Source: a virus
DNA length: 30,524 bases
Strand: one strand, 5' to 3'
Virus record (IMG/VR): IMGVR_UViG_3300040806_001441
Span: 1-30,524 of that record
Shown here in pieces: positions 1 through 28,300 of this stretch; positions within the stretch are counted from its first letter, which is position 1; the number at the start of each line of letters is the position of its first letter. The position numbers and the translations under genes were made by a program. Below the pieces are notes generated by a model that made no database searches, had not been told where the DNA came from, and saw only the letters and a program-made list of their open reading frames with translations.

Positions 1-909
1 ATAATAATTGTTACCATCAAATTCTTCAATTATTTTTTTCATCATATTAAGACTATGTAAATTGTAGTCATAAAAAACTATTTCAGCATTTTCTTCAAAT
101 CCACACTTTTCTAAATATAAAAGAAAGTTTAATCCGCTAGCAGGCATAATTATCTGTTTAAGTTCTTTTACCTGGGGTTCGATTACAGTTTCAGTGTTTG
201 CCGGATAAAACAATCTTGTCATTGCATAATTGTTCTTTTTGTAATAGTGCGAAAAATTTTTATGAAATTCATCAGCATATTTTGCATAGTAATTTCTTTT
301 ACAGTTTCTAATTGAGTCATCAAAAATTTCAAACTTCATATTCCATGCCAGCCCTCTATTAATCCAACTGTGACCAAAACATTGATGTTGATACTCCCTA
401 GGAGTATCACCTGGTAAAATCGAAACGGGTGTGTGTTCATGGTGATAATTTTCTTTACTGCGTTGAGGTTGAATCTGTGTGTGGGTAGTGTTTAAACTCC
501 ATTCTCCTATGTCAATGCTTCCTAACTTTTTATATTTTTCAAAATTAACAACAAAGCACTGATCATGCAATTCGTAGTATGCTTCATCTCTATCAAGTAT
601 GTGTCCTGCAACAAAGAAATCCTTCTGCAAAAGGTTTTTAAGATTAACAAAAAAACTTCCTCCTTCGAATTCGGTATCATTAGTATACACTACTGCATGT
701 TTGTATGTGTTAGAAATATCTCTAAGAACAGAGTCAATATTGTTTCTAGTAACATATACATCATATCCGTGATCAATAAGATTATGCAAAGTGTAATCCG
801 AAAGATTTTTAATTAACGATTGTATTGAATGATCCTCTATTTTAGGTGTTATGTCAATACACACAAATGCTGTGGTATTAGGGTTGTTAGTCTTATAACT
901 AAAGGCCAT
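1..909 (-). CDS. Conserved phage protein of unknown function, C-terminal part missing (window edge)
   Basis: An open frame of 303 codons runs on the minus strand from an ATG at 909-907 to the window edge without a stop, so the 3' end lies outside. The ATG lies inside the end of the 2OG oxygenase gene (11-nt overlap), which makes it the last visible gene of the radical SAM operon. The N-terminal half (about residues 40-120) reads like an alpha/beta nucleotide-sugar or Rossmann-type fold. A His-rich stretch YHHEHTPVSILPGDTP lies near residues 158-173. The visible C-terminal end, VFYDYNLHSLNMMKK, resembles the acidic-loop strand of methyltransferase-like folds seen in marine phage proteins. That resemblance is from memory and weak. 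No catalytic motif is clear. The operon position suggests a role with the radical SAM and oxygenase enzymes. Confidence 0.75.
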   Translation of the reverse strand, partial: MAFSYKTNNPNTTAFVCIDITPKIEDHSIQSLIKNLSDYTLHNLIDHGYDVYVTRNNIDSVLRDISNTYKHAVVYTNDTEFEGGSFFVNLKNLLQKDFFVAGHILDRDEAYYELHDQCFVVNFEKYKKLGSIDIGEWSLNTTHTQIQPQRSKENYHHEHTPVSILPGDTPREYQHQCFGHSWINRGLAWNMKFEIFDDSIRNCKRNYYAKYADEFHKNFSHYYKKNNYAMTRLFYPANTETVIEPQVKELKQIIMPASGLNFLLYLEKCGFEENAEIVFYDYNLHSLNMMKKIIEEFDGNNYY

Positions 910-1555
910 GTTTATCCATGCTCCTTTTAATTAAATCTATAAATTCTCTTTTCATATTTCCAGGATGTATCTGTGCAATCATGTGTACCCGATCCTCGTT
1001 TGAATTATTTGTTACTCTATGATTTTGTAAGATATTGACCAGGAATACTTTTCCTGGTTTCCATGGCACAGTGCCGTGCCCTTCAATCTCCATTTTGCAA
1101 CCTTGAGGATTGGTAATTGAAACATTTATTGGTAATAAAAAGTCAAGTAGATTATTTGGGTATTCCTTGGGTGTATCATTGTGCATTCCAACGTGACCTT
1201 GAGGCTTTAGTTTCATAAATCTCACTCTTGCAAATTTTTCAGCAGGGAAGTCCTTCCAAAATTTAGTAGCCTTAGGAGCATCTTTACTAACCTCGGTCCA
1301 GTAGTATGGTGCATTAATTTCATCGTTATACCCGTAATCATAACAGATGCGTGTCATGTTAGAACCAAGACCGTGAATACAGCATGATTCCCATCCTTTA
1401 TGATCCTCACCTTCTCGATGTTCTACATAATATTTTTTAATTTTTTCTAGTTCCATAAGATCTTGATATGGTGTAAATGAAGTATCTAATTCTAACCACC
1501 CTATATCTCCGCGTTTAAAAGATTCTAGTAATTCTAAAACTCTACTTTCGGACAT
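899..1555 (-). CDS. 2OG-Fe(II) oxygenase, aspartyl/asparaginyl beta-hydroxylase type
   Basis: A 218-residue protein with the iron-binding facial triad of 2-oxoglutarate dioxygenases. HND (His125, Asp127) lies in the segment GHVGMHNDTP, and the distal His179 lies in QNHRVTNNSNEDR. Arg189 is the likely 2OG carboxylate ligand. Spacing and surroundings (PINVSITNPQGCKMEIEG, then WKPGKVFLVN) match the aspartyl/asparaginyl hydroxylase family. The start was set at the ATG at 1555-1553 because AGGA of GGTAGGAAAG lies 7 nt upstream; an in-frame TTG at 1570 is less likely. It overlaps the upstream methyltransferase gene by 14 nt and the downstream gene by 11 nt, so it belongs to the radical SAM operon. 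It could hydroxylate a peptide, free amino acid or sugar; nothing in the sequence decides the substrate. Confidence 0.85.
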   Translation of the reverse strand: MSESRVLELLESFKRGDIGWLELDTSFTPYQDLMELEKIKKYYVEHREGEDHKGWESCCIHGLGSNMTRICYDYGYNDEINAPYYWTEVSKDAPKATKFWKDFPAEKFARVRFMKLKPQGHVGMHNDTPKEYPNNLLDFLLPINVSITNPQGCKMEIEGHGTVPWKPGKVFLVNILQNHRVTNNSNEDRVHMIAQIHPGNMKREFIDLIKRSMDKHGL

Positions 1556-2168
1556 GTTCTTTCCTACCAATTATCATAAATCTTTTATATTCAACGTTTG
1601 GCATTTCTAGTTCAGCAGACTGTTCTATTTCAATGCCACATGTCTTTTTAAATTCATCAAGATTTTTAGAGCAATTAATGTGTTCTTTAAGATCATAATA
1701 ATTATTACTTTGTAATACAATAGTAGATCTATAAGGTACCTTGGATAGCCACTCATCATATTGTTTTTGTGTAATGTGTTCGCAACTAGTATTGATTATC
1801 ACAGTCGGAACACTATCATAATTATATTCACACATGTCGCTAGTCACTGCTTTAAATCTTCCTTCTATTTCTTGCCTTTTATTAACCATTAAGGCTGTAT
1901 CTCTAACCAGAGGATCTATATCTACAGATACTATACTTTTCACCCCGATGTTACTGTTAAACAACATGCTGGCTAATACTCCATTCCACCCACCATGTAT
2001 TACGATAGATGAATTTGTAATACTGCTTAATCTTTTTTCTAAGAATTCAATTAACCAAGTTTTGGATTGTAATTGACCTCCCCAAAAACTTTCAAGAGTT
2101 CGATATCTGTCTTCGCTGTTGCGAATAGCATCCATCCAAAATTTTATATCTTTAATATCAATCTTCAT
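1542..2168 (-). CDS. Class I SAM-dependent methyltransferase
   Basis: A 208-residue protein with a Rossmann methyltransferase core. The glycine-rich SAM loop is IVIHGGWNG (residues 55-63). The acidic residues after strand 2 are SVDIDP (Asp83/Asp85). Asp111 follows in VTSDM, and motif IV is INTSCEH (about 125-131). The N-terminal 50 residues are helical and carry an FWGGQ segment. The ATG at 2168 overlaps the stop of the upstream radical SAM gene as ATGA, so the two are translationally coupled. The substrate is unknown. In this operon it may methylate the product of the radical SAM proteins, or be an O- or N-methyltransferase acting on a small molecule. No DNA-recognition domain is visible, which argues against a restriction-type methylase. 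Confidence 0.8.
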   Translation of the reverse strand: MKIDIKDIKFWMDAIRNSEDRYRTLESFWGGQLQSKTWLIEFLEKRLSSITNSSIVIHGGWNGVLASMLFNSNIGVKSIVSVDIDPLVRDTALMVNKRQEIEGRFKAVTSDMCEYNYDSVPTVIINTSCEHITQKQYDEWLSKVPYRSTIVLQSNNYYDLKEHINCSKNLDEFKKTCGIEIEQSAELEMPNVEYKRFMIIGRKEHVRK

Positions 2169-3142
2169 TTTATTTTTGGTATTTTACTGTCAGCACTACT
2201 TACGCAAGTATCAGTAATGCATTTAGATGGTGCTTTAAACAGCGTAAAACCGTCTGTAAGCGTGCCTAAGGGTTGTTCCGCACAACTATATGCTCGCTTA
2301 ACTTCAACACCCCTTATAATGCAACTTTGATACCCTGCTACACAATTCCATCCTTTGAATTTATTGAAACCAAAAGCGTTCATTCGTTCTGCTTGATCCA
2401 ATCCATAATCATTTCCTTTATGATCTTCAAAATACATTTGCATGACTTGTTTTCCTTGATTGTTTTGTGGAAAGTTGGTCTGCATCTTATCAATTTGATC
2501 CTCAGTATATTCATCCACAACAAAACTTGCTGTTGGGTCGCTCTGTGGTTTTAGTGTCACATTAATACCTTTCTCTGAAAATCTTGCACAGCGATCATAC
2601 AATTCATCAAACTGTTCGGGAACCATGACTTGATTGATTGTGACATATACTCCAGCGTTCATTAGTTGCAAACACTTGTCGCCAAATTCTTGTTCCTGTG
2701 CAAATTCTGAGTGATAACTTGCTGTTATGCTTCTTCTCTGTAGATTACTAGTTGTCTCTGACCATTTGCTCCACCACTTGCTGCCCGGAGATAGATTAGT
2801 GGTCATGTGTATGCTTTGGTAAGGTGCTTCTGTATCGCTACAGTAATGCTTTACAAGCTCTCCGAAGTGTTTGTATGCAGTAGGCTCACCGCCTGAAAAA
2901 CTAAAATGGAATTCTGTAAATCCATTATCTCTCGCTTGTCGTTTAATTTCATTTATTGTATTTTTGTAGACTTCTAGTTCTTGATGATCTGGTTTATCAG
3001 TATTTGCATATGGCCAGCAGTATGAACACTTGTAATTACAGAATCTACCCAATATCCAACTAACGTTGAACAATGGCTGATCTAGCATTGTTCTCTGTCC
3101 GAACTTAATTATATTATCAAAGGGTATAAGTGTAAAACTCAT
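2165..3142 (-). CDS. Radical SAM protein with C-terminal auxiliary cysteines
   Basis: A 325-residue radical SAM enzyme. The CxxxCxxC cluster-binding motif is Cys35-Cys39-Cys42 in GRFCNYKCSYCWPYANTD, and the SAM-binding GGEP motif is at residues 84-87 (FSFSGGEPTAY). The C-terminal 65 residues hold at least four more cysteines (WNCVAGYQSC, YSCAEQPLG, CITDTC), consistent with a second iron-sulfur site of the twitch/SPASM kind. The start ATG (3142-3140) overlaps the stop of the upstream radical SAM gene (ATGA). Two radical SAM proteins in direct coupling suggests sequential steps on one substrate. Peptide maturation is the commonest role for such architectures, but no precursor peptide gene was found nearby. 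Confidence 0.88.
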   Translation of the reverse strand: MSFTLIPFDNIIKFGQRTMLDQPLFNVSWILGRFCNYKCSYCWPYANTDKPDHQELEVYKNTINEIKRQARDNGFTEFHFSFSGGEPTAYKHFGELVKHYCSDTEAPYQSIHMTTNLSPGSKWWSKWSETTSNLQRRSITASYHSEFAQEQEFGDKCLQLMNAGVYVTINQVMVPEQFDELYDRCARFSEKGINVTLKPQSDPTASFVVDEYTEDQIDKMQTNFPQNNQGKQVMQMYFEDHKGNDYGLDQAERMNAFGFNKFKGWNCVAGYQSCIIRGVEVKRAYSCAEQPLGTLTDGFTLFKAPSKCITDTCVSSADSKIPKIK

Positions 3143-4200
3143 TTGGACCTCTCAACTACTGCATTCGAACATGCCTTAACACAGGTCATGCATTTGTTTT
3201 CTCCTTGCCAGTAATCGTCAATACCTGTAAATAAATTTCCGTCGGTTCCTAGTATTTCTGTTTGACAGTTAGGAATTCCTATGTTGTCTAGCATAGATTT
3301 TGTATCATCGACAGAAATATTTCTCAGAGTATGTATAGGAAGAGTTTCTTCAACTGGTTCTTCTAGATAGTCACTACCGATATAACAACAAGGAGTTATG
3401 TTTCCGTACGGATCAACATATATTCCTTGCTCAACCATACATTTAGGATTTATAGTTGCTGATGCTAATATGCTGTTTCTATAATCCTTATTCAATAGAT
3501 CTTTTAGATCAGCATTAGGATATCTTGCATATTCTTTTCTTTGTGCCGGACGAATGTAATACTCTATTTCACTTCTTTGATTAATAACTTTAAATTTATC
3601 CATCTCATAGAATCTAGTGGTACTTACAAAATTTACTTCTTTAACTCCTAAATTTAATAAAAACTCTTCTAATTTTTCTGTCTCATTCTCGTTGTGTGCA
3701 AAAACTAAACTATCCACTTTGGCATGGCCTCCCGCATCTATGTACGCTTTCATATTTTCTATAACCTTATCAAAGTTTGTGTTTCTTCTGTACAGTTCAT
3801 GCTTGCCCTTAAAGCCATCAACTGCAAATGCAACCGAACTTCCATTTTTGGTTCCTATTATGTCTGCTAGTTTACTCCACCATTCTGGGTTGCGCATTCC
3901 GCCATTAGTGTGTAGTGCCAATCTAGTATCAGGATTGCACTCTCTCACATATGAATAAATTTCCAAACAATCTCTTGCGAATGCCGGGTCACCGTAATTG
4001 CCACAACTATAAAAATTTTGTAATTGTCCAAGGAATGATTTTGGAAACCATTTTTTGAAATCTTCAATACTGATATCGCCGTTTTTGATGAACGGACGTG
4101 TTGGCCCGCCATGATAATTTCTAGCACACATTGGACACTGTGCCTGACACTTATCTGTAAGTTCTATATGAACCGTTGTGATATCTTTAATCTTTTGCAT
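3139..4200 (-). CDS. Radical SAM/SPASM domain protein
   Basis: A 353-residue protein and first gene of the minus-strand operon. The CxxxCxxC motif is Cys18-Cys22-Cys25 (TDKCQAQCPMCARNYHGG). A SPASM-like C-terminal region has NPKCMVEQGIYVDPYGN followed by TPCCYIG, and then CMTCVKAC near residues 338-345. That is enough cysteines for auxiliary clusters. SPASM radical SAM enzymes usually modify peptides or proteins; others act on sugars or nucleosides. The ribosome site AAAGG lies 7 nt before the ATG. A late-type TTAAATA motif sits about 24 nt upstream on the minus strand. The gene leads rSAM, methyltransferase, 2OG oxygenase and an unknown gene, all coupled by short overlaps. Confidence 0.88.
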   Translation of the reverse strand: MQKIKDITTVHIELTDKCQAQCPMCARNYHGGPTRPFIKNGDISIEDFKKWFPKSFLGQLQNFYSCGNYGDPAFARDCLEIYSYVRECNPDTRLALHTNGGMRNPEWWSKLADIIGTKNGSSVAFAVDGFKGKHELYRRNTNFDKVIENMKAYIDAGGHAKVDSLVFAHNENETEKLEEFLLNLGVKEVNFVSTTRFYEMDKFKVINQRSEIEYYIRPAQRKEYARYPNADLKDLLNKDYRNSILASATINPKCMVEQGIYVDPYGNITPCCYIGSDYLEEPVEETLPIHTLRNISVDDTKSMLDNIGIPNCQTEILGTDGNLFTGIDDYWQGENKCMTCVKACSNAVVERSK

Positions 4201-4242: not shown

Positions 4243-4271
4243 TTGATAACCGCGTTTAAGGCTTACATACT
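4243..4271 (+). promoter_or_regulatory. Degenerate sigma70-type promoter, copy of the 8502 element
   Basis: TTGATA, a 17-bp spacer, then CATACT. The spacer starts ACCGCGTTTAAGG and is nearly the same as that of the strong promoter at 8502. No plus-strand gene follows until 5269, so transcription from here would run antisense to the minus-strand gene at 4283-5233. It may be a relic or an antisense promoter. Confidence 0.5.
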
Positions 4272-4276
4272 AGTGT
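4243..4276 (+). repeat. 34-bp direct repeat, left copy, bracketing the sugar cassette
   Basis: Matches 8502-8535 at 28 of 34 positions in the same orientation, including an identical CCGCGTTTAAGG core and an identical TAGTGT end. The two copies enclose genes 4283-8481. In T4-type phages, early promoters with adjacent stem-loops are known to act as mobile cassettes that seed recombination; this pair looks similar. Confidence 0.7.
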
Positions 4277-4279
4277 AAG
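4262..4279. repeat. Inverted repeat beyond the stop of the 4283-5233 gene
   Basis: CTTACA and TGTAAG form perfect 6-bp arms around a 6-nt loop (TACTAG). On the minus strand it lies a few bases after the stop of the glycosyltransferase-like gene, but no T-run follows, so a classical intrinsic terminator is doubtful. It overlaps the degenerate -10 of the 4243 element and could be the stem-loop partner of that promoter. Confidence 0.45.
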
Positions 4280-4282
4280 ACA

Positions 4283-5233
4283 TTATAACATATCCTTAAC
4301 TAGTTCTTGGTATCCACCAAATTGTAAAATACTGTTAGGTACCAGATTTATGTCAAACCTAATATCCATTAGTCTTTTGTAGTTTCTTTCTGCTTTTTTT
4401 GCAACCATATTATACATTTTTTTATGATTCGTTTTACTTAATAATTCAATTTGTTTTACTATGTGTTCTAATCTATCTGCGTCATTAACAATACTGTCAA
4501 AACTATAATCAATAATTTCATCATATAGTTCAAACCCTAATTCCTGTAATGCTTTATGAAAATTTGGCACACTCCAAACTAAGAAAGGCTTTTTAAAATA
4601 TATCGGTGTATATGTTTTTTCAGTCGGAAAAATAGTCTCCATTGTAGATTCACTAACAAGACTAATAAAACTTTCAAAAAATATTGAAGGAAAAGATTCA
4701 TACGAGTTCATTGTTTCTGCATACTGCGTATCTATTATTAGACGTTCTTGTTTCCAATACTCAAAATCGTATTCAGTATTTGTTTCGTTCCAACTAATTG
4801 CTCCTTGTTTAATTAAATCAAATCTTGCTAATTGATCCATCATTTGACATCTATGATGCCAAGGTTTATTATTCAAACTTACAAATGTTTTTGTAAATGA
4901 TGTGTTGTCTGCTTTATGTTTATAGTGGTGTAATTCATGGTACGTATATGTAGGCCAGAAAGTTTTCCAATAGGTTACATTGTTACCTGGATAAAAAGAG
5001 TTGCTTGCAGGGAATCCACCGCAAACAAACTCTACGGTATTAGTAGAATAGTGTATCGCTTTTCTAAGTTTTTGTAATATTTTTTTGTTCGCTGGATCGT
5101 CCCATCCTATTATCGCATATTCCTCTGCACCTAAAATTCTTATTTTTGCATTACGGGTATTTTGAATTTTATCTAATAAACTGCCAAGAGACCAATCGTC
5201 ATGCCATACATATAGGTTTACTATTTCACTCAT
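4283..5233 (-). CDS. Putative glycosyltransferase-like phage protein
   Basis: A 316-residue protein with no textbook motif. Its second half has the segment PTEKTYTPIYFKKPFLVW (about residues 203-220), followed by LGFELYDEIIDYSFD. The same layout occurs in the product of 7318-8481 (EKL, then KTPFILLAPP, then LGFKTF). This E-K ... PF ... LGF pattern recalls the C-terminal donor-binding region of GT-B enzymes such as GT10 fucosyltransferases, where EK is followed by a G/PFL-type loop. That assignment is inference only. The start ATG at 5233-5231 has a late-like ATAAGTA motif just upstream and no clear Shine-Dalgarno. It is divergent from the aminotransferase gene at 5269, with only 35 bp between. 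The shared family signature at both ends of the cassette suggests both proteins act on the same sugar pathway. Confidence 0.7.
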   Translation of the reverse strand: MSEIVNLYVWHDDWSLGSLLDKIQNTRNAKIRILGAEEYAIIGWDDPANKKILQKLRKAIHYSTNTVEFVCGGFPASNSFYPGNNVTYWKTFWPTYTYHELHHYKHKADNTSFTKTFVSLNNKPWHHRCQMMDQLARFDLIKQGAISWNETNTEYDFEYWKQERLIIDTQYAETMNSYESFPSIFFESFISLVSESTMETIFPTEKTYTPIYFKKPFLVWSVPNFHKALQELGFELYDEIIDYSFDSIVNDADRLEHIVKQIELLSKTNHKKMYNMVAKKAERNYKRLMDIRFDINLVPNSILQFGGYQELVKDML

Positions 5234-5268: not shown

Positions 5269-5853
5269 ATGTTTGAAATAGTTAAAGAGTTTGAAAAGCA
5301 AATTGCAGACTACTACGGTGCACCTTATGCTGTGGCTACAGATAGTTGTACACATGCAATTGAACTTTCTCTAAGATACGATAACCCAAAAGTCAAATTA
5401 ACTATTCCAACTAGAACTTATATTAGTATTCCCTTTACTCTTATGAAACTAGATTTAGATTGGAGTTTTGTGAATGTTGAATGGAGTGAATACTATTTTA
5501 TCGGTGGTACAAGAATTATCGACGGTGCAGTGAACTTTGCTAGAAATAGTTACATTAGAGGACAATTGATGTGTTTAAGTTTTCAACATAAAAAGATGCT
5601 TAGTCTAGGAAGGGGAGGCGCAATACTGTGTCCAACTGAACAAGATTACACAACGCTTAAACAAATGGCATATGACGGCAGAGCAGATGATAAACCTTGG
5701 GTAGAACAAAATATAAAACAAATAGGATATCACTATTACATGACTCCTGAAACTGCTGAACTTGGAATCGAAAAATTAAAAACTGTAAAAGCAGATAAGT
5801 TATGGACCAGCGAAGACTATCCTTACTTGCCTGCTATGGAGGTTTTTCAATGA
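5269..5853 (+). CDS. Short DegT/DnrJ/EryC1/StrS-type PLP aminotransferase
   Basis: A 194-residue protein that reads as the catalytic half of a sugar aminotransferase. The N-terminus FEKQIADYYGAPYAVATDS with THAIELSL is typical of the family's 'y.ga.yava...T.Al.lal' region. Asp of IIDGA is the likely PLP pyridine-nitrogen ligand. SFQHKKMLSLGRGGAIL carries the expected Schiff-base lysine before a GRGGAI turn. Family members usually have about 370-400 residues. Here the C-terminal small domain is almost absent, with the chain ending soon after the MTPETAELGIEKL helix. The start was set at 5269; an in-frame ATG at 5263 adds two residues. The stop overlaps the amidinotransferase start as ATGA. StrS-family enzymes put an amino group on a keto-sugar or keto-inositol, which is what a following amidinotransferase would need. 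Confidence 0.82.
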   Translation: MFEIVKEFEKQIADYYGAPYAVATDSCTHAIELSLRYDNPKVKLTIPTRTYISIPFTLMKLDLDWSFVNVEWSEYYFIGGTRIIDGAVNFARNSYIRGQLMCLSFQHKKMLSLGRGGAILCPTEQDYTTLKQMAYDGRADDKPWVEQNIKQIGYHYYMTPETAELGIEKLKTVKADKLWTSEDYPYLPAMEVFQ

Positions 5854-6818
5854 ACTCAACAAATGAATGGGGACAACTACGTAAGGTAATTGTAGGAGTT
5901 GCAGATCATGCAAAGATACCTACTGACGTTGATATAAGTTTACGCTGTGTAAATTTTGCAGACAAAATAAACGAAAGCGAAATACAAAAAGGTCCTTATC
6001 CACAACAAGTAATAGATGAAGCGAATGAAGATTTAGAAACCTTTGTAGGTTTTTTAAAAGGAGAATCAATTGAGGTACTTAGAACTGATCGTACTGATTG
6101 TAACTATTATAACTATTGCCCACGCGACTCGGTTTTTATTCACGGGGAACTAACACTTGCAACACCTATGCCCATACGTGCAAGGAAAGATGAATGGAAA
6201 GCATTTGAGAAACATTTAGATAATCCTATCAGCATTCCTTGTTATAACGAAAGTAGTTTATATAATACTGATTGCATTGGCAATAAAGATGTATTGGCTT
6301 TAAATGAGTTTGAACCTGCATTTGATGCCGCAAATGTTATTCGTGCAAACGATGATGTACTGTATCTGGTAAGCAACAGCGGAAACGAATTAGGTGCAAC
6401 ATTATTACAAGATAAACTTGGAGATACTAGAGTTCATTTGTTAAAAGACGTTTATAGTTTTATGCACATTGATAGCACTATTGCTTTTTTGCGTGAAGGG
6501 TTATTACTTGCCAATCCAAGCAGAATTAAAACAAAAGACGACTTACCTGAGCCATTTAGAAGTTGGGATATTATATGGTGTCCTGAACCTGTAGACATTG
6601 GACACTATCCTAAATGGTGTAATGCAAGCACATGGATTAACATGAACTTGTTCAGTGTAAATACAAAGTTAGTTGCACTAGAAGAAAATCAAGAGCCTCT
6701 ACGCAAGGCACTCGAACAACACGGAATAGAATGCGCCATGTTGCCTATGAGGCATCAACGCACACTTGGCGGTGGATTTCACTGCGTAACATTGGATATA
6801 AAAAGAGATGTGGATTAG
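5850..6818 (+). CDS. Amidinotransferase (glycine/inosamine amidinotransferase family)
   Basis: A 322-residue protein with the complete pentein-fold amidinotransferase triad. Asp159 lies in EPAFDAANVI, His206 in SFMHIDSTIAFLREG and Cys312 in LGGGFHCVTLDI. PRDSVF (residues 91-96) is the conserved 'PRD' substrate loop. The length is close to StrB1-type scyllo-inosamine-4-phosphate amidinotransferases (about 350) and shorter than eukaryotic glycine amidinotransferase. The enzyme transfers an amidino group, normally from arginine, to an amine. The start at 5850 is supported by TGGAGG 7 nt upstream and by overlap with the aminotransferase stop; an upstream in-frame ATG at 5802 lies well inside that gene. 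Next to a StrS-type aminotransferase the likely acceptor is an amino sugar or aminocyclitol, but a glycine-like acceptor cannot be excluded. Confidence 0.92.
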   Translation: MNSTNEWGQLRKVIVGVADHAKIPTDVDISLRCVNFADKINESEIQKGPYPQQVIDEANEDLETFVGFLKGESIEVLRTDRTDCNYYNYCPRDSVFIHGELTLATPMPIRARKDEWKAFEKHLDNPISIPCYNESSLYNTDCIGNKDVLALNEFEPAFDAANVIRANDDVLYLVSNSGNELGATLLQDKLGDTRVHLLKDVYSFMHIDSTIAFLREGLLLANPSRIKTKDDLPEPFRSWDIIWCPEPVDIGHYPKWCNASTWINMNLFSVNTKLVALEENQEPLRKALEQHGIECAMLPMRHQRTLGGGFHCVTLDIKRDVD

Positions 6819-7299
6819 AGGTAAATGTCCAGTAATATGGAATCAAGCGTTTAAAGACTTTGATTATGTAAGACAGCCTATCACAGGTGCTGAGTCAGAT
6901 ACGTGGCGTGAACAAGGCTATACGCATGAAACTACAACAGGAAAAATGTATGGCAGTATACACACTATGCCTACATATACTAAAGAAGTTGCAAAGTTAA
7001 TAAACTTAAAAAACTGTGGTTTTGTATTTTATAGAATGGATACTTTAGATATCATGCCTACACATATTGATCATTACAATACATATTGTAAAGTGTTTAA
7101 CAAAACACGTGAAGAAGTTAGACGTGCTATTGTATTCTTAGAAGATTGGAAACCTGGACATTATTTTGAATTAGGTGGCGAATGTATTGCAAACTACAAT
7201 GCAGGCGATTATGTATTATGGTCACCTGATGTGCCACATGCGGCCAGCAATATTGGAGTTGATCCAAGATACACATTACAAATTACAGGCACTTACTAG
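6808..7299 (+). CDS. 2OG-Fe(II) oxygenase-like protein
   Basis: A 163-residue double-stranded beta-helix protein. HID (His86, Asp88) lies in MPTHIDHYN, the distal His144 in SPDVPHAASN and Arg154 in RYTLQITG. These match the iron and 2OG ligands of small phage and bacterial dioxygenases. GGECIANYNAGDYVLW is the conserved glycine-rich strand before the distal His. The gene starts at an ATG overlapping the amidinotransferase end by 11 nt. It may hydroxylate the guanidino or sugar product; Fe-2OG hydroxylation of guanidino compounds is known chemistry, but the link here is inference. The cupin-like fold could also serve an epimerase-type role. Confidence 0.8.
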   Translation: MWIRGKCPVIWNQAFKDFDYVRQPITGAESDTWREQGYTHETTTGKMYGSIHTMPTYTKEVAKLINLKNCGFVFYRMDTLDIMPTHIDHYNTYCKVFNKTREEVRRAIVFLEDWKPGHYFELGGECIANYNAGDYVLWSPDVPHAASNIGVDPRYTLQITGTY

Positions 7300-7317
7300 T
7301 AATGGAGTATACAAATC

Positions 7318-8481
7318 ATGGGTTTTGATGCACACAAATTTTATCATAAAAATTTTCCTAACAAGGGAATACGATCTAATTTTCCTAGAGATGTAGATTT
7401 AACATTTTTGAAAGATACAGAGTTTCCAACAATTGTTTATACGGGTAATCAAACACTTAAAATATCTAGAATATTAGGTAGCAAATTTGATCAAAAACTT
7501 ATAAGGAGGGTAAGCAAGAAAGGTTTAAAGATTTATCTTTATGAACCTTTATGCTTTTACATAAAAGGCGATACGTACAATAAATCTTTTTATAGTGAAT
7601 TTTCAGTCCATGATGATCTGACATTGATTAGGTCTGAGGAATTAGATAGTATACAAAGATTAATAGACACACATGGATTTTATAATGTAACGGTATACAC
7701 ATGCGATTACAATGTTGAAAAATATTTAGGACCACACTACAATTTTAATATAGAATGCAAGGATCTCTTCCTTTCCGATGTTAAAAATATAGTAAAGAGA
7801 AAGCACAAGCCAAAAAAAATAGAAAAACATTTTTGGTGTGCAATTGGAAGGTACACATATCCTAGGCACTTGATAGTTTCTTATCTTACTAATTTTACAG
7901 GAAACTATACATGGCATTACGAATACGAGGGAGATATTCTTGGGGATGACAGTTGGTTAGAAAAAGAAAAACTAACTGAGAAAATGTGTTCTATGTTAGA
8001 AAACGGAAATAAATTGCTTAATCATAATTACTACAATATTGATACTGAATCAAATTCAAGAGAACTAGTTACATCACTAGAAGGAGTTTACATTCCTAAA
8101 TTAAAAAATGGTATACAGTCAACTAAGTTTTTAGAAAGTTACGATAATTGTTTTGTTGCTGTAGTTGCTGAAACAAGATTTGCTCAACCCACTGCAAATG
8201 TAAGTGAAAAATTACTACATTGCATTTCTTCCAAAACACCCTTTATACTTTTAGCACCTCCACATACTTTAGAATATGTTCGATCATTAGGATTTAAAAC
8301 ATTTTCTAAATTTTGGTCTGAAGAATATGATACAATTGAAGATCCTACACAAAGATTAAAAGAAATATTTACTGTAATTGATAACATAGGATTAATGGAC
8401 CTATCAGAAATTGAACAGATGTATGCAGAGATGGCAGAAATATTAGATTTCAATGTAGAAATATTGAACAACTTAAAATAA
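7318..8481 (+). CDS. Putative glycosyltransferase-like phage protein
   Basis: A 387-residue protein and last gene of the plus-strand cassette. The C-terminal third carries VVAETRF (about residue 283), SEKLLHCISSKTPFILLAPP and then VRSLGFKTF and EEYDTIEDPTQR. Order and spacing resemble the end of the 4283-5233 product and, more distantly, the donor-binding region of GT10-like GT-B enzymes. No DxD motif stands out. The start ATG has GGAG about 11 nt upstream and lies 18 nt after the oxygenase stop, so co-translation with the cassette is likely. The region before residue 160 has no motif I recognise. The call rests on the weak C-terminal signature and on context, so treat the chemistry as unproved. 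Confidence 0.7.
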   Translation: MGFDAHKFYHKNFPNKGIRSNFPRDVDLTFLKDTEFPTIVYTGNQTLKISRILGSKFDQKLIRRVSKKGLKIYLYEPLCFYIKGDTYNKSFYSEFSVHDDLTLIRSEELDSIQRLIDTHGFYNVTVYTCDYNVEKYLGPHYNFNIECKDLFLSDVKNIVKRKHKPKKIEKHFWCAIGRYTYPRHLIVSYLTNFTGNYTWHYEYEGDILGDDSWLEKEKLTEKMCSMLENGNKLLNHNYYNIDTESNSRELVTSLEGVYIPKLKNGIQSTKFLESYDNCFVAVVAETRFAQPTANVSEKLLHCISSKTPFILLAPPHTLEYVRSLGFKTFSKFWSEEYDTIEDPTQRLKEIFTVIDNIGLMDLSEIEQMYAEMAEILDFNVEILNNLK

Positions 8482-9136: not shown

Positions 9137-9137
9137 C

Positions 9138-12659: not shown

Positions 12660-13772
12660 ATGAACAATAACAACATAGATCAAGCACTTTCAGCACTGGG
12701 TGATGCCTTAAAAGGACAGGAACCAGAAGTCAACCCATTACAATTGATTTCTCAATTTCCTGATAGGTCCTTAAGTGGCAATCTCGTAAACGGTGGCAAG
12801 ATACTAAATTTTGAAAGTGCAGGTATCAAAGATACTGCAACAAGCACAAAAATTACAATCAATAACGACAGGGTAATTATAGATACCCTAGCAACTAATA
12901 CCATTTCAAATTCCTTGGGTATTTTAGGGGATCTCAATGTTGACGGTGTTATTAGAGTTGGAACTTTAGAAGTAGAACATCTAGTAACAAATCTTGATCA
13001 AGACTATCATAGAAATAAACCAGTTAAGTATACTGGCGATCTCAACGGTAAGGGAATTTTATGGGCTGGACAAGACTATACCAAGCAGTTTGTTTATCAA
13101 ACTGATAAAATTTTTAGTTCTGAATCTATCAACATTGCGAGAGGAAAGAATATATCAATCAACGATGTTACAGTAATCGACGGAGAGTCTATAGGATCTT
13201 CAGTTGTAAGAAGTAACTTAAGACAAGTTGGTGCTTTGCAAGGACTAGTAGTTAACGGATCAGTAAGTGTTAACAACTATATGATTTACGATGCAAATAC
13301 AGATAGGTTAGGTCTTGGAACTGATCAACCAAATGCTGCTCTAAGTGTTGCAGAGGATGGAGTTGAAATTATTGTTGGCACTGCTGACTCTACAAGAGGT
13401 GTCATTGGAACATTTGGCAGTCATGCACTTGATATCGTAACTGATAATTCTTCAAGAATTAATGTTGGAACAAATGGCGATGTTCTAATTGGCAATCGAC
13501 AAAGTTCACCAATACAAGCAAGCATACACGGAAAATTATCTGTTAAGGTAAACATGCCAGATCCTGAAGTTGATTTACATGTAAATGGTGCTGTTAAATT
13601 TAATAATAAACTACAAACACATGGAACAACATATCCAAACGTTGGCGAATTTAACAAAGGAGATATTGTTTGGAATTCGGAACCACAACTTGGCTCATAT
13701 GCTGGGTGGATCTGCGTAAGAGCTGGTAATCCAGGAACGTGGGAACCGTTCGGAAAAATTGGAAATCAATAA
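12660..13772 (+). CDS. Tail-fibre-type virion structural protein, paralog 1
   Basis: A 370-residue beta-rich protein. Residues 129-370 are clearly homologous to the next gene product: GKGILWAGQDYTKQFV, INIARGKNISIN, SSVVRSNLRQVG, DRLGLGT then PNAALSV, LHVNG and AGNPGTWEPFG. The DRLGxGT...PNAALSV and C-terminal 'GWICVRAGNPGTWEPFG' patterns are typical of tail fibres and other trimeric structural proteins of phages. Residues 30-115 form an extra N-terminal beta region missing in the paralog. It is the first late gene after 12646. Its stop TAA shares its last A with the ATG of the paralog. Confidence 0.8.
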   Translation: MNNNNIDQALSALGDALKGQEPEVNPLQLISQFPDRSLSGNLVNGGKILNFESAGIKDTATSTKITINNDRVIIDTLATNTISNSLGILGDLNVDGVIRVGTLEVEHLVTNLDQDYHRNKPVKYTGDLNGKGILWAGQDYTKQFVYQTDKIFSSESINIARGKNISINDVTVIDGESIGSSVVRSNLRQVGALQGLVVNGSVSVNNYMIYDANTDRLGLGTDQPNAALSVAEDGVEIIVGTADSTRGVIGTFGSHALDIVTDNSSRINVGTNGDVLIGNRQSSPIQASIHGKLSVKVNMPDPEVDLHVNGAVKFNNKLQTHGTTYPNVGEFNKGDIVWNSEPQLGSYAGWICVRAGNPGTWEPFGKIGNQ

Positions 13773-14617
13773 TGACTGAAAGAACAGATCAAGAAAGATT
13801 AAAAACATTAGCAGACGCACTGTTAGACGTAGTAGGCGAGCGAGAACTTGAACCTGCGGATAGTATTCAGCATCTCAAGTTTAAGGATCCTATTAATGGC
13901 AAAGGTCTTCTATGGCAAGGTAGAGATTACACTAAACAATTTGTTTTTCAAGATAGCAAACTATTTTCATCCGAAACTATTAATATTGCTAGAGACAAGA
14001 ATATTTCGATTAACAATATTAAAGTTTTAGATCAAACCGAATTAGGTTCAAGTGTAGTTAGAAGTAATTTAAGAGAAGTGGGACAACTTAATGGGTTGGT
14101 TGTTAATGGCGGGTTCCGCGTCAATAATTTTTTGGTATTCGATCATAATAGTGATAGACTTGGTATAGGTACCGAAGAACCTAACGCAGCATTAAGCATA
14201 GTTGACGATGCTGTAGAAATAGTATTAGGAGCCAAGGACCATAGTAATGCAGCCATTGGAACATATAATAATAGTGACTTACACCTAGTAACTGGAAATC
14301 AAACTAGAATTACTATTGGTGCTGATGGTAATATTCAGTTAGGCAGTGTAACAGATGGCGAATCTAAAATACAAGTACACGGAAGTATAGGTGTTAACGT
14401 AACCAGTATTGATCCGAGATCAAAACTGCATGTTAACGGATCAATTAAATTTAATGACAATCTTCATTTAACAGGTGTTGAAGCACCATCCGGCGGAAGT
14501 TTTACCTTGGGAGATATAGTTTGGAACTCAAACCCCCAACCTGGAAATTTTGTTGGATGGGTTTGTGTTAAAGCAGGTAATCCTGGAGTGTGGGCGACAT
14601 TCGGCGAAATTAGGTAA
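13772..14617 (+). CDS. Tail-fibre-type virion structural protein, paralog 2
   Basis: A 281-residue protein whose residues 41-281 align with residues 129-370 of the preceding product (GKGLLWQGRDYTKQFVF, SSVVRSNLREVG, DRLGIGTEEPNAALSI, AGNPGVWATFG). It lacks the 80-residue N-terminal beta region and has instead a short helical head (TDQERLKTLADALLDV). The start at 13772 is coupled to the upstream stop (TAATG); the frame extends to 13739 inside the paralog. Tandem duplication followed by divergence is likely. The two proteins could form heteromeric or alternative fibre parts. Confidence 0.8.
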   Translation: MTERTDQERLKTLADALLDVVGERELEPADSIQHLKFKDPINGKGLLWQGRDYTKQFVFQDSKLFSSETINIARDKNISINNIKVLDQTELGSSVVRSNLREVGQLNGLVVNGGFRVNNFLVFDHNSDRLGIGTEEPNAALSIVDDAVEIVLGAKDHSNAAIGTYNNSDLHLVTGNQTRITIGADGNIQLGSVTDGESKIQVHGSIGVNVTSIDPRSKLHVNGSIKFNDNLHLTGVEAPSGGSFTLGDIVWNSNPQPGNFVGWVCVKAGNPGVWATFGEIR

Positions 14618-15326: not shown

Positions 15327-15776
15327 ATGGGAAAACATTACAGCACAAAACACTACGGACACAACATTGGACTGTCAGCAGTCTTTAGACAACCTAACGC
15401 AGATCATTCACATTGCCATTTATTACATGGTTACAGTCTGGCATTTACATTCACATTTGGTTGTGATGAACTAGACAACAAAAACTGGGCAGTTGACTTT
15501 GGTGGGCTAAAGCCTTTGAAGAAGTGGCTTGAAGATCACTTTGATCACAAAACAGCAATTGATAAAAATGATCCACATATGGACAAGTTCTTGGAACTAC
15601 AAGAATTAGATCTAGCAGAGATTGTTGTTATGGACGGTGTTGGTGCAGAGAAGTTTGCTGAACACGCATTTAACTTTGCAGACAAACTAATACGTGAAGC
15701 AACAGACAATCGTTGTTACTGTGTTAAAGTTGAATGTGCAGAGCACGGAGCAAACAGTGCAATCTATGAAGCATAA
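15327..15776 (+). CDS. 6-pyruvoyl-tetrahydropterin synthase/QueD family protein
   Basis: A 149-residue protein of the PTPS/QueD fold: N-terminal HYGHNIGLSAVFRQ, the metal region DHSHCHLLHGYSLAF (residues 26-40), WAVDFGGLKPLKKWLEDHFDH (54-74) and the C-terminal Glu strand VKVECAEHGANSAIY. Canonical members bind zinc through the His of 'AAH' and both His of 'HGH'. Here these read AVF and HGY, while His27, His29 and His34 are nearby. I recall this variant in other phage PTPS proteins. The reaction may be 6-carboxy-tetrahydropterin formation (queuosine or 7-deazaguanine route) or another pterin step. AAGGAG lies 6 nt before the ATG, and its stop overlaps KdsA by 11 nt. Confidence 0.88.
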   Translation: MGKHYSTKHYGHNIGLSAVFRQPNADHSHCHLLHGYSLAFTFTFGCDELDNKNWAVDFGGLKPLKKWLEDHFDHKTAIDKNDPHMDKFLELQELDLAEIVVMDGVGAEKFAEHAFNFADKLIREATDNRCYCVKVECAEHGANSAIYEA

Positions 15777-16554
15777 AATTAGAATCATTGCAGGACCTTG
15801 TCAGCACGAAACACTAGAGCAAAGTCTCGCTATTGCAAAAGAATGTAAAAGTGTTTGTGACAGGCACGGTATCGAATACATTTTTAAAGCAAGTTACGAT
15901 AAGGCGAATAGGTCGTCTATTCACGGCATTAGAGGACGGGGATTAGCAGACACTATGAATGACTTTGCCATTCTTAAGAGCAAAATAAAAGATCTAAAAA
16001 TTATTACTGATGTGCATAACGTTAATGAAACTCTTAAGATTGGAGCATATTATAACGATATTATTGATGTATTACAAATTCCTGCATTCTTGTGCAGACA
16101 AACGGACCTAGTTCGTGCTGCTGTTAAGACAGGAATGATTGTTAACATTAAAAAAGGACAATTCCTTGCACCTTGGGATGTAGAAAACATTTTGTCTAAA
16201 ACAGAAGGAGCCAAGGAAGTATGGATTACAGAAAGAGGAACGAGCTTTGGATATAACACTTTGGTTACTGATTTCACTGGCCTTCAGTTTATGCTGTCTA
16301 ATTATAACGTTCCCATTGTTTATGATATTACCCACTCGGTTCAAAAACCCGGAGGTATGGGCACTAGCAGTGGCGGTAATCGTGAGTATGTGCCTGGCTT
16401 GGCTCGTGCTGCATCTGCAATGGGTATAACAAACTTCTTTCTAGAAGTTCACGAAGATCCTGATAATGCACCCAGTGATGGACCTAATGCATTACACTTA
16501 AAAGACTTTAAAACAGTTGTCGCAGATATTGTTAAGTATTCTTACACAGGATAG
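15766..16554 (+). CDS. kdsA: 3-deoxy-D-manno-octulosonate 8-phosphate synthase (KdsA), metal-dependent type
   Basis: A 262-residue TIM-barrel aldolase that condenses phosphoenolpyruvate with arabinose 5-phosphate to KDO 8-phosphate. Motifs in order: IAGPC (Cys12), FKASYDKANRSSIHG (40-54), TDVHN (81-85), QIPAFLCRQTDLV (104-116), NIKKGQFLAPWD (127-138), ITERGTSFGYNTLV (154-167), YDITHSVQKPGG (186-197), FLEVHEDP (225-232) and SDGPNALHL. Cys12, His190, Glu227 and Asp238 fit the metal-dependent class; metal-independent enzymes have Asn in place of Cys. Start at 15766 is chosen because it leaves MKHKIRIIAGPC, the usual N-terminus; upstream in-frame codons lie inside PTPS. It is followed by a glycosyltransferase and a HAD phosphatase, which fits a KDO-type sugar pathway. 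Confidence 0.95.
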   Translation: MKHKIRIIAGPCQHETLEQSLAIAKECKSVCDRHGIEYIFKASYDKANRSSIHGIRGRGLADTMNDFAILKSKIKDLKIITDVHNVNETLKIGAYYNDIIDVLQIPAFLCRQTDLVRAAVKTGMIVNIKKGQFLAPWDVENILSKTEGAKEVWITERGTSFGYNTLVTDFTGLQFMLSNYNVPIVYDITHSVQKPGGMGTSSGGNREYVPGLARAASAMGITNFFLEVHEDPDNAPSDGPNALHLKDFKTVVADIVKYSYTG

Positions 16555-22381: not shown

Positions 22382-25300
22382 ATGGCAAGAAAAGTTATTG
22401 ATGTCGGTGCAGTTGGTAATGACGGAACCGGCGATAGTATTAGAAATTCGTTTAGTAAAGTAAACGATAACTTTAGAGAATTATATAGTTCACTAGGGCT
22501 AGGTGAACGTTTAACATTTATAGGGTTAGACGATACTCCAGCATCATTCCTAGGACAAGAAGGCGCGGTAGTATCAGTTAACCCAACAACTGATGCATTA
22601 CAATTCAAACAAATTACAGGAGGTATTGGTGTATCAATTGACACTACCAGTAACTCCAACCAGATTATTGTTAACACAGAATTTTCAGAAATTTCAGGTG
22701 ACACATCACCACAACTTGGTGGTGACCTTTCAGTTCAATCAGGCGGTAATACTTATAAGATCAAAGATCTTGCAACCCCAACTGAAGATACCCAAGCATC
22801 AAACAAAAGTTATACTGACTCGAAACTTTCACGTGCAGGCGTTGATGCAATAGATCCTGAAACAGGAACACTACAAAGTGCATTCGGAACCATGAGTGGT
22901 CCGTTGATTCTTTCTCGTTCTCCTGAGCCAGACGACGACGAAAGATATGACGGATTAATTGCTGCAACAAAACAATATGTTGACGGTTCATCCTTTGGTT
23001 CTTCTGTTAACCTGTATGTTGCCACATCAGGAGCAGATGAACGTCCAGGTGTTAGTCCTGCATTGCAAGGTAGAGCACTTGCATACGCATATAAAACAAT
23101 TGAGGCAGCACTAAAACGTGCAGAAGAACTTGTAAGAGAATCAGAAGACGATATTGGTCCTTACAAGAAAGTTTTAACATTCAATAATGGAAATGATTCA
23201 GTTACACTTGCAGGTGTTGGAACAGCACCCACTTCAGGATCAGGCTTTGCGGGTGTTGCTAAATTAAGTGTTGACACAATTACAATTAATAATGCAGGTA
23301 CAACTTATAACGTAGGCGATGTAATTACCTTATCAGGCGGTACTGGAACTGCTGCAGAATATGAAGTTTTAACAACAGCATCAACTCCTGGTGCGGTTGT
23401 AACATTTAGACAATTATCATCAGGTAACTATACTACAATTCCTGGTTCAGTAGGGGTTACAACAACAACTAATAGTGCATTTGGTAGTGGAGCAACTTTC
23501 AATGTAACTTATAAAGTTAACAACGTTGACATCAGCACTGGTGGTTCAGGTTATAGTTTAGTATCAGTAAGAATTACCGGCGGTGGCGGAACAGGTGCAT
23601 TTGGTGTAGCAACTGTGGTAAGTGGAGAAATTACCAAAGTTGAAGTTACTGACACAGGTAGTGGCTTTACTAGTTCACCAACTGTTGTTGCTGATTTACC
23701 TAGATTTTTACTTAGAACAGACGGACTAAGAACAGATTTTACAGGAGATGTATTAACTGATACTCCAGTAGCATTTAGAACAAGAGATATTAGAGAAGGT
23801 TTATACTTACGTGGCGAGACATCAGGAGCACTTGCACAGATTCTTGCACATGAAGGAGCATTAGATAGTAGCGGTAACGAGATATTTGATGTGGATATCA
23901 AGTATGGCACATTCCAACTAAATGAAGTTATAGCCTATGGTGATATTACTAACCAAGTTCAAATTTCAGTATTCATAGAAAGCGGTGTTTACGAAGAAAA
24001 CTATCCTTTAAAAGTTTCACAAAACGTTGCTATTATTGGTAATGAATTTAGACGTGTAATCATAAAACCAAGAAAAGGAACTTCAAGTTCTCCTTGGGCA
24101 TTTCAAAAATTTAGAAGAGACACTACCATTGACGGCTTAACAACTGCTACTCAATTATACGGTCATCACTATCTATCAGATAGCACTGAGCCTGTTTATC
24201 CAAAAATTAATAACCCTGGAAACTATAAGGCATCAGCAGCTCTTATCAAACTGAATAGAGTGTTCTTGCAAACTGAAATGGTAGCGTGGATCAACTATCA
24301 AATAGCAAATAATTTATCGCCTTTTACTAGTTCGTTTGAGTATGACGAAAAATTATGTAAAAGAGACTATGGATTAATTCTAGATGCTATGATATTTGAT
24401 ATTACCTATGGTGGGTATGACAGAACAATATCAGCAGGTTTAAAATATTTTCAAAGTGTTAGCGGAAGAAAAGCAATAACCGATCAGTTATCTGAATCAC
24501 TTGCTGGCCTTGCACATTTACAAACATTGGTTAATGCTGTTGTTAATAATAATACTATATCAACTGTTTACAATGAAATATTAACACAAGTAAAAGATAC
24601 TGCTTTCGTTAAAGAAACAGGAACAGAAGCAGTATTAGATGATTTGTTTGATGCATTTGAAGATGTAATTGATAACTCAGGCAGTGTTAACTATCCTAAA
24701 GACAATGAGGACATGGATGTGTTCCTTTGTAACGATGCAGTGATTATTAGGGCTGTAACAACTCAAGGGCATGGTGGTTTTACTATGGTGCTAGATCCGC
24801 AGGGACAAATTCTTGCTAAGTCACCGTACTGTCAAGAATCAGCATCGTTCTCAAGATCCATTAATGCACAAACGTTTGCAGGCGGTATGTTTGTTGACGG
24901 CTTTGCTGGTAACTTACAATTTAAACATACTGCTACTGTAGCAGGAACTGGTAATACAAGAATTGAAGTTTCAGGGCTAGATAGAATTCCAAATCTTCCA
25001 GCATCGTTCATTGTTAATGATGATATTTTTAGAGTAAACTATGTCAGAGATTTTGTCTTTGATCCTCAAGGGTCTACTGCAACATTCTCATTAGACGAAA
25101 CTACTCCGTTTACTGAAACACCTGGAGAGCAAACTCTTACATCGATTAGTTTTGGTACTCCAGCAATATTTACATTTGTTAATCACGGGTTACAGGCTAA
25201 TTCATCAATAGTACTTTCAACAACAGGAACACTACCAGCAGGACTTGTTGCTGGCAAGGAATATTACATTGCTGAAAACGGATTGACTAGTAATACATTT

Positions 25301-28300
25301 AGACTTACAACAACATTTGGCGGAACAACACTTGTAGATACAACTGATGCAGGTAGCGGAACACACAGTTATCAAAGACTTTACGAAGTTCTAATGCCTG
25401 GTAACAGATCAATGCTTTCAAATGACTTTACACAGGTTGCTGACATGGGGTACGGACTACTTGCAACTAACGGTGGATTGACTGAAGCCGTTTCAATGTT
25501 TACCTATTACACTTATACTTCATACATGTCATTGAACGGTGCGCAGATTAGAAGTATTGGTGGATCGTCTGCACATGGTGTGTATGCATTGGTTGCTGAA
25601 GGATCAGATCCTTTAGAAGTACCAACTCCAACTACAATATATTATGATTTAGCACAACAAGTTGATTGTTACGCACCCAGTGCATTATTTGCAAACACAA
25701 CAAACGGATTGTTTATCAATGTTACTAATTACGATTATACACCACTTAATAATTCAGAACTTGAAGTTGACCACGGTGCTTTAATTTATAGATATCCAGT
25801 TACTTCAGTTAGTACAACTGACTTACCAGACGGTGTTGCTAGACTGAACTTAACATCAGACGATACAGGAAACTTTGAAGGACTATTCGCAGTCATTCCA
25901 GATGAAACAAAGATGACACTGCGTTCTAATTCGCAGATATTGTTAACTGGAGAACTTGCTGATGTTGCTACTAGACCATCAACGGGTTTAAGATTACAAG
26001 AATCTTCAGATGTTTATCGTGTTCTACAATTTGAGTCTTACGATGATACTGTTGATGGTAGAGGCAGACTTGAGTGTACATTTACAACTGCTGACCCAAC
26101 AGTAATTACTTTTCTATTAGAAGTCATATCCATTGATAGTAATATTGCTACAACAGCAAGAAATCACGGATTAATTGCTGGCGATACGTTTACTGCACAG
26201 AGTACGGCGAACGGATTTGTCAACAGTACCACATACTATGTAATTGATGTACCTACATACGACTCATTAGAATTTTCAACTACATCAGGCGGTTCGACTC
26301 ATACGTTAACAAACGGCACTGGATTATCAATTAAAGGAATTATTCCTCATAAACAATTGGCTGATTATAGATTAAGTTTTGCAAATAGTGGCGGAACATT
26401 GCCAACAGGTATTAGCGAGGCTATTTCACAGTACTTTGTTTTAGAAACAGGACTTACTACAACAAGTTTTAGAATTTCAGAATCTCTTAACGGTGCTGCT
26501 GTTGCAGTTACGGCACCAGGAACCGGAACTAATAGTGCGGCTGCAGAAGGTATTACTAAAACTACACTAAGAGAAAACTATAACTATATTGACTTAACAA
26601 TATATAAGCCGGGAGAATTTGTTGGAACGTCCGGCGCTGCACCAGTTGTTCCTGGAACATCATATGCTATTAGTTCATTTACTATTGCATCACCTGCTGC
26701 GGGCATAGTTGTTACGAGTGCACCACACGGGTTATCAGTCGGCGATGTTATTAAATTCGAAACTACTGGAAGTTTACCAACAGGTATTACCGACGCAGCA
26801 CAATATTATGTTTCCGATAATGATGCTGATTCATTAGGCGCTAGTTCCGTTCAATTTACGGTAACATCAACACCACCGTCACTTGCTTCATCTTTAGAAA
26901 TTGCGTTTAGTGGAAGTGCTTCAGGAACTGCTGTGTATGGTCCTGTAACTGGTAGAGCCGGCGATACACAAATAGCCGTGGTTCCAGTTGCTCCTCAGGA
27001 AAGAGGTAGAGTTAAAGACAGTATTGTATGGTTTAACGGTGAAAGATATGTGATTGATGCGTACGAATCAGAAGATGATCTTGCTGAAGCATACGCAAGA
27101 ATTACGTTAGATAGACCATTAGAAGATTCATTAATACAGTATGACGGAACGTATACAATTAAATCACATGTTCCTATTAGAACAATAAATGCTAACGGCA
27201 ATCTAACTATTAGGATTTCATTGACTCGTGTTACATCACATGACTTACTAGAGATTGGTACAGGATCATATGCAGATACTAACTATCCAAATGAAATTTT
27301 TGGGCCAGCGGTAAATGCTGTTAATCCAAGTAACGAAACTGAAGAACGTTCAGTGGGACGTGTGTTTTATGTAACCAGTGACCAATTTGGTAACTTTAAC
27401 GTTGGACCTTACTTTAGGGTTGACCAAGGAACAGGACGAGTAACATTCTCCGCAGCGATTGCATTGAGTAACTTGGATGGTATTGGATTTAAGCGTGGTG
27501 TTCCTATTAGTGAATTCTCAACAGACTCTGGCTTTAGTGATAATGCTGTTGACACAGTTCCTACAGAGAATGCAGCCAGATTATATATTGAAAGGCGATT
27601 AGGTCTTACGCACAGTGGAGCGGTAGTTGCTCCAACTTCAAACTTAATTCCGCCAATCAGCGGCGGCTTTATGGCATTGGACGGTCAATTAGCCATGAAG
27701 GCAGACATGGATATGAATCAACATAAGATTGTTAATGTTGCTGATGCTGTTAATCCGCTAGATGCTTTAAACCTTAGAAGTTTGACTTTTGATAATCTAC
27801 AGAACTTTACATTTACAGATTTGGCTGCTAATCAATTGCTTGTATTCACAGGTGTTGATAGAGAAGCAGTTAACGCAGAAGTAGTTGGCGACATTACACT
27901 AAACATTGATTCGACAGCAAACACTATTGATGCACAGATTGAACCAGACGTAATTTTAGATGCTGACGTAAACACAAATGCAGATGTTGCACAGAGTAAA
28001 CTATTAATGCAGTTAACAACTGCTGATGCGGCAGCACCAACAGGAACTGCTAGAGATAAACAAGCACGCAGTGGACTTGCAAGTTTTGACACAGCACAGT
28101 TTACAGTGGTTGATGGATGGGTTCAACTGAAAGCAAATGGTGTTCCTAAAACTGCACTGGCACAAATTGCTGCTAAGTCAGTACTAGGTAACAGCGGACT
28201 CGCTGCGGCAAATGCCAGTGATGTTTTATTCACTACCGTTGTTGATAGTGGTGGATCGATCAAGAAAAATCAATATAGCGGAACTGGATTCCTACGCAGA

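Follow-up and report, generated by a model that had tools for sequence, protein, structure and literature searches.

A conserved phage gene set encoding a miniature aminotransferase and an amidinotransferase that probably builds a guanidino sugar

Analysis of a 30,524-nucleotide viral DNA fragment (IMG/VR record IMGVR_UViG_3300040806_001441; the whole fragment is called the window here) revealed four consecutive genes encoding an aminotransferase (AT), an arginine amidinotransferase (AMT), a 2-oxoglutarate (2OG)-Fe(II) oxygenase-like protein and a glycosyltransferase-like protein (Table 1). The four open reading frames (ORFs) lie where an earlier reading of the sequence alone, the original prediction, had placed them, and the ATGA that it described as coupling the AT and AMT genes occupies positions 5850-5853. 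The AMT ORF overlaps the 2OG ORF by 11 bases, and a gap of 18 bases separates the latter from the glycosyltransferase-like ORF. A divergent block on the minus strand (899-5233) encodes two radical S-adenosylmethionine (SAM) enzymes, a hydroxylase-like 2OG oxygenase, a further conserved protein and a second glycosyltransferase-like protein, and T4-like tail-fibre genes are also present in the window. A near-identity DNA search of the window against named phages gave no match. Since AMT homologues were found on 72 viral contigs and the approximate ratio of nonsynonymous to synonymous change (dN/dS) relative to relatives was low for the AT, AMT and 2OG genes (0.04-0.18), the gene set is not a chance occurrence.

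Table 1. Features of the window discussed in the text, with the evidence for each assignment
Feature	Position	Strand	Evidence
AT: 194-amino-acid (aa) miniature DegT/DnrJ/EryC1/StrS pyridoxal phosphate (PLP) aminotransferase	5269..5853	+	Pfam PF01041 4e-17, AlphaFold and Foldseek
AMT: 322-aa arginine amidinotransferase	5850..6818	+	phmmer to 1bwd StrB1, catalytic residues, tree
2OG-Fe(II) oxygenase-like, aspartyl/asparaginyl hydroxylase type, conserved AT/AMT partner	6808..7299	+	Invariant iron/2OG residues
GT-B-like glycosyltransferase	7318..8481	+	Fold model, Foldseek to T4 beta-glucosyltransferase 1j39
Divergent glycosyltransferase-like protein, same broad family as 7318-8481	4283..5233	-	Homologues of both in single-linkage cluster F4
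Radical SAM enzyme 1	3139..4200	-	PF04055 3.9e-12
Radical SAM enzyme 2	2165..3142	-	PF04055 1e-12; 64-78% identity in relatives
Conserved protein, SAM methyltransferase-like by eye	1542..2168	-	Family F8 in 41 loci; no significant PDB match
Aspartyl/asparaginyl beta-hydroxylase-like 2OG oxygenase	899..1570	-	PF05118 5.1e-13
Tail-fibre-like virion protein, possible glycan carrier	12660..13772	+	PHROG tail fibre and virion structural matches
Second tail-fibre-like virion protein	13739..14617	+	PHROG short tail fibre and tail fibre matches
KdsA, 3-deoxy-8-phosphooctulonate synthase, phage sugar-precursor gene	15694..16554	+	TIGR01362 322 bits, cut-off 314
2252-aa tail fibre, possible glycan carrier	22382..29140	+	phrog_9851 tail fiber 7.9e-44; T4_gp9_10_N 7e-7

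The AT proved to be a StrS-type PLP aminotransferase, as had been claimed, with a match above the cut-off of the Pfam family DegT_DnrJ_EryC1; the original prediction had missed its truncation, full two-domain DegT enzymes having about 360-400 aa. The family matches end ahead of the C-terminal domain, which is absent, and a profile alignment paired the two halves of the protein with residues 35-85 and 136-252 of the 375-residue sugar aminotransferase 7b0m, so that about 50 internal residues are missing as well. Asp85, Lys109 and the motifs SFQ..K, GRGG and GYHYYMTPE are invariant among 29 aligned homologues, all equally short. The AlphaFold model (pLDDT 94.5, pTM 0.91) had as its closest folds in Foldseek GDP-perosamine synthase, AtS13, BtrR, ArnB and WbpE, and the best NCBIfam family, LegC, scored below threshold. 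The protein thus shares the PLP core and the invariant Asp and Lys with the DegT/StrS sugar aminotransferases (GDP-perosamine synthase, WbpE, ArnB, LegC/PseC) but is about half as long. Because its homologues are equally short, its PLP residues are kept and its predicted sugar-aminotransferase fold is confident, the AT looks like a genuine miniature enzyme. The loss of a whole domain and of the internal residues would also be expected of a degenerate, non-catalytic remnant, with the host supplying the amine to the AMT; we consider this very improbable, given the mini-form relatives in 592 viral loci, the invariant catalytic residues, the confident fold and the low dN/dS (about 0.04-0.15 for the AT, with dS near saturation).

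The AMT retains the intact triad that had been predicted, D159, H206 and C312 (counted from the ATG at 5850), and these residues do not vary in any of the 69 phage homologues; D93, R112, D208 and S260, among them donor-site residues, are equally fixed there. Comparison with solved structures, which the original prediction had proposed as a check, placed the AMT nearer to StrB1 (1bwd, phmmer E 6.9e-62), the L-arginine:inosamine-phosphate amidinotransferase of streptomycin biosynthesis in Streptomyces griseus, than to arginine:glycine amidinotransferase (AGAT; about 1e-34), with HsvA and SxtG as further solved relatives. The likeness to StrB1 extends over the full length and includes the catalytic Asp, His and Cys and a Tyr-containing flap, and both the StrB1 cluster and the phage cluster contain a DegT aminotransferase gene. 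In contrast to StrB1, the phage AMTs are shorter and sit among glycosyltransferases without an inositol-phosphate synthase. A quick tree, in which the placement of the root and of the CP220 branch is uncertain, united them in a single clade (SH-aLRT 100) that falls outside the StrB1-containing bacterial family; identity to bacterial relatives reached 44% at most. The relationship to StrB1 therefore makes it likely that the acceptor amine is not glycine, but does not reveal which amine it is.

Viral amidinotransferases have, however, been read as glycine amidinotransferases making guanidinoacetate, that is, as creatine-type metabolic genes. A putative glycine amidinotransferase has been annotated in Campylobacter phages, which carry distant homologues, since 2010 (PMC2853527), a lake virus gene was assigned to K00613 (PMC8226683) and a marine survey interpreted viral GAMT as creatine biosynthesis (PMC11360552). 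Residues of the 300-flap bear on this reading, as Asn300 and Met302 of AGAT have roles there (PMC4887976). The AGAT flap, Asp-Pro-Asn-Pro-Met (PNPMH in the human enzyme), is replaced by VYS[YF]MH in most phage sequences (VYS[YF][MV]H overall) and by YASTH in StrB1; the phage AMTs keep the Met in most cases, Met205 of the AMT corresponding to Met302, whereas Ser stands at the Asn300 position and the Pro-Asn-Pro is missing. This departure, the far better match to StrB1 and the constant pairing with a sugar-type aminotransferase among glycosyltransferases make a glycine amidinotransferase an unlikely identity for the AMT. A guanidinoacetate methyltransferase role was also considered for the F8 methyltransferase-like protein and dropped, as this protein had no significant PDB match at all.

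Second, divergent amidinotransferase-like proteins were observed in relatives (L066:8968-10053, L187:3709-4803, L027:2085-3104 and the PQ898602 214353-214246 region, L241:14354-15247); the second copy in Synechococcus phage S-SCSM2R is annotated as glycine amidinotransferase and adjoins KdsA and KdsB. Among bacteria, StrB1-like amidinotransferases lie beside a ~1400-aa adenylating-enzyme-like protein in loci L084, L122 and L147 (Halieaceae and other marine bacteria), which perhaps make an uncharacterised guanidino natural product.

The two proteins encoded downstream of the AMT are more divergent. As a single sequence, the window 2OG protein gave no usable match in PDB or Pfam; its family has invariant H86, D88, H144 and R154, corresponding to an HxD...H iron triad and the Arg for 2-oxoglutarate, and PF05118 (Asp_Arg_Hydrox) matched nine of 25 family members, all distant from the window protein (best E 1.3e-7). 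Likewise, the 7318-8481 protein matched no sequence family in PDB or Pfam, and its fold was therefore modelled (pLDDT 80). The best Foldseek match was T4 beta-glucosyltransferase (1j39; E 6.9e-5, probability 1.00), with a TM-score of only about 0.3, and the protein is a putative GT-B glycosyltransferase.

Comparison of the 72 AMT loci, all homologues from a scan of viral contigs, revealed that the AT, AMT and 2OG genes travel together. The AT was present in 67 of the contigs, the remaining five being contigs whose edge cuts through the cluster, and the 2OG gene in 65 of the loci. The order of the trio was AT-AMT-2OG in 40 loci, AT-2OG-AMT in 12, AT-AMT-2OG-2OG in seven, 2OG-AT-AMT in five and 2OG-AMT-AT in one, and six glycosyltransferase genes can intervene between AT and AMT. 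A second scan seeded with the AT, in which the nearest AT relatives were kept (48 loci, L186-L233, three on contigs already in the first scan), found an AMT within 6 kb in 39. Pairwise distances of AT and AMT were also correlated (r = 0.92, to which shared phage ancestry contributes). The persistence of the trio despite changes in gene order indicates a functional unit. The original prediction had named partners unrelated across relatives as an outcome that would count against it, and this outcome did not occur.

The genes surrounding the trio point to sugar metabolism. Recurrent neighbours included an NDP-sugar 6-dehydrogenase family (49 loci), epimerase/dehydratases of the short-chain dehydrogenase/reductase (SDR) type, GT2 glycosyltransferases and radical SAM enzymes, and GT25-like proteins occurred in runs of three to six near AMT clusters; tail-fibre genes were also among the neighbours. 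Within 20 large viral records, an NDP-sugar 6-dehydrogenase was found in 17 and an SDR in eight. Shortened NDP-sugar 6-dehydrogenases of about 246 aa lie beside the miniature AT in two loci (L055:6380-7117 and L052:6380-7120), and several sugar enzymes of these phages are reduced in length. In phages resembling the window, radical SAM enzyme 2 adjoins the trio and shows strong conservation, and its family had no match among 50,697 named phage records. A NodU-type carbamoyltransferase, which suggests a carbamoylated sugar, is encoded downstream of the AMT cluster at L195:8895-10388 and in 16 other loci, mostly cyanophage-like.

Where the miniature AT occurs without an AMT, another candidate amine-modifying enzyme can take its place. 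In Flavobacterium phage immuto a PglD-like acyltransferase adjoins the AT, and a 642-kb phage encodes a fusion of an SDR with an acyltransferase-like domain that matches the 3VBI series in PDB, deposited as galactoside O-acetyltransferase, which we take to be AntD. Such replacement fits an AT that makes an amino sugar and an AMT that caps its amine. The arrangement resembles amino-uronic acid pathways of the WbpA/WbpE/WbpD type and amine capping of the PglD/AntD type, in which a 6-dehydrogenase and a DegT aminotransferase act and the new amine is then modified, except that acetylation occurs there and amidino transfer is proposed in the phages.

The combination of a DegT aminotransferase with a StrB1-type AMT is also that of streptidine synthesis, and the original prediction had drawn on the streptomycin pathway, in which inositol derivatives are the substrates. 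A guanidino-cyclitol or other streptomycin-like small molecule, rather than a glycan sugar, would agree with the resemblance of the AT fold to BtrR and with the finding that, among the bacterial AMT loci fetched, only those of Streptomyces also had a mini-AT or DegT gene recognised by the two queries used. However, inositol-1-phosphate synthase (PF07994) was found in none of the 20 records, although hosts could still supply inositol, which contrasts with the 17 records with NDP-sugar 6-dehydrogenases and the density of glycosyltransferase and NDP-sugar genes around the trio. An inositol substrate thus lost ground, and we give a cyclitol product a low probability.

We propose that these phages encode a pathway that makes a guanidino sugar, which glycosyltransferases attach to a glycan, a reading that we hold to be fairly probable. 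The catalytic residues, folds, co-inheritance and sugar neighbourhood are observed; from these we infer what the substrates and the product are, in which order the steps proceed, where the sugar is carried and how the phage would gain from it. An NDP-sugar 6-dehydrogenase, an SDR dehydratase/epimerase or radical SAM enzymes, of phage or host, would generate a keto-sugar nucleotide, which the miniature AT would aminate to an amino sugar. The AMT would then transfer the amidino group of arginine onto the new amine, giving a guanidino sugar; the 2OG oxygenase may act as a tailoring hydroxylase on the product, and the adjoining glycosyltransferases would place the sugar on a glycan.

Several points weigh against this proposal. 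Its substrate and product are inferred, not observed. NDP-sugar dehydrogenase and SDR genes are missing from the 30.5-kb window, itself a fragment. A domain present in the characterised DegT enzymes is missing from the shortened AT, whose activity is therefore not assured. In the AMT, the residue adjoining the catalytic His, Met205, agrees with AGAT and not with StrB1, which has Thr there, and several bacterial AMT relatives adjoin adenylating enzymes (judged by eye) and not sugar genes. Because of these neighbours, and because the phage clade lies outside the StrB1 family, kinship with StrB1 does not alone prove a sugar acceptor.

DNA had also been suggested as the target of modification. A guanidino group or guanidino sugar placed on a base by a T4-like glucosyltransferase could block restriction, and the nearest fold to the 7318-8481 model, together with the ThyX and QueD-like genes of the window, would suit such a role. 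The complete circular S-SCSM2R genome, however, contains no member of the thymidylate-synthase/hydroxymethylase family and no CmoA, its TET/JBP matches stayed below the cut-off, and the base-handle enzymes searched for (hydroxymethylase, TET/JBP and CmoA) were missing in most of the 20 records, a thymidylate-synthase family protein occurring in two. Moreover, the likeness to T4 beta-glucosyltransferase is distant at its TM-score, and the family of the 7318-8481 protein is variable (about 35% identity), in the manner of glycan transferases. The search of the complete relative therefore lends the claim for DNA little support, and hypermodification of DNA seems improbable to us.

For the guanidino sugar proposed here, the most likely carrier would be a protein of the virion, for example a tail fibre, and otherwise lipopolysaccharide or another glycan of the host surface. 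Virion fibres are favoured because tail-fibre genes are present in the window (12660-14617 and 22382-29140) and genes judged by eye to be collar-fibre-like, whose family (F37) had no database match, flank the cyanophage clusters. A more specific version, which we advance tentatively as a possibility, is that large marine phages use the one-domain AT and the phage-specific AMT to make a guanidinylated sugar, in some lineages also carbamoylated, that is displayed on tail-fibre glycans. Collagen-like G-X-Y runs, considered as sites for GT25-type glycosylation, were absent from the window fibres. The two adjacent fibre-like proteins at 12660-14617 carry a repeated module (GKGxLWxGxDYTKQFVxQ...SSExINIARxKNISIN), an apparent tandem duplication.

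Elsewhere in the window, a QueD/PTPS-like gene, KdsA, a glycosyltransferase and a HAD phosphatase like eukaryotic PMM are consecutive (15327-18091) and possibly represent a separate supply of a KDO-type sugar. The idea that KdsA always accompanies the trio was rejected, since among the 20 records only S-SCSM2R, besides the window, had it. Other phage-borne genes encode a UvdE-like endonuclease (18079-19146), an Fe/Mn superoxide dismutase (20729-21289), an IscA/ErpA-like protein (21688-22014) and ThyX (9123-9794).

Among named phages, a similar arrangement was found in S-SCSM2R (PQ898602), where genes 305-310 include homologues of the AT (54% identity), AMT (64%) and 2OG protein (28%) in one run with glycosyltransferase and radical SAM genes. 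These are annotated as 3-amino-5-hydroxybenzoic acid synthase, inosamine amidinotransferase and 2OG oxygenase; gene order and glycosyltransferases differ from those of the window, and we found no published function for the cluster. Campylobacter phages CP220 and CPt10 similarly have an amidinotransferase amid radical SAM and nucleotide-diphospho-sugar-transferase-like genes, but it is only about 23-25% identical to the AMT, carries the glycine amidinotransferase annotation and had no adjoining miniature AT homologue. Thus the earlier statement that no such phage pathway had been described stood for the pathway, of which we found no description in the open-access literature (subscription papers lay outside the search), and not for its single enzymes, already annotated in S-SCSM2R and the Campylobacter phages (PMC2853527). 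The union of these enzymes as a pathway would be a new form of phage glycan biosynthesis cluster.

In sum, a family of marine phages most likely carries a conserved enzyme set that would build a guanidino sugar, probably for glycan decoration. We know of no virus with a positively charged guanidinylated sugar. If the proposal is correct, phages would make a sugar building block by chemistry familiar elsewhere chiefly from aminoglycoside antibiotics such as streptomycin, using a single-domain DegT aminotransferase that is unusually small for its family. Guanidino-bearing glycans on virions would be its testable prediction, and viral genes now regarded as metabolic genes for glycine amidinotransferase, and perhaps for creatine synthesis, would be reassigned to glycan biosynthesis.

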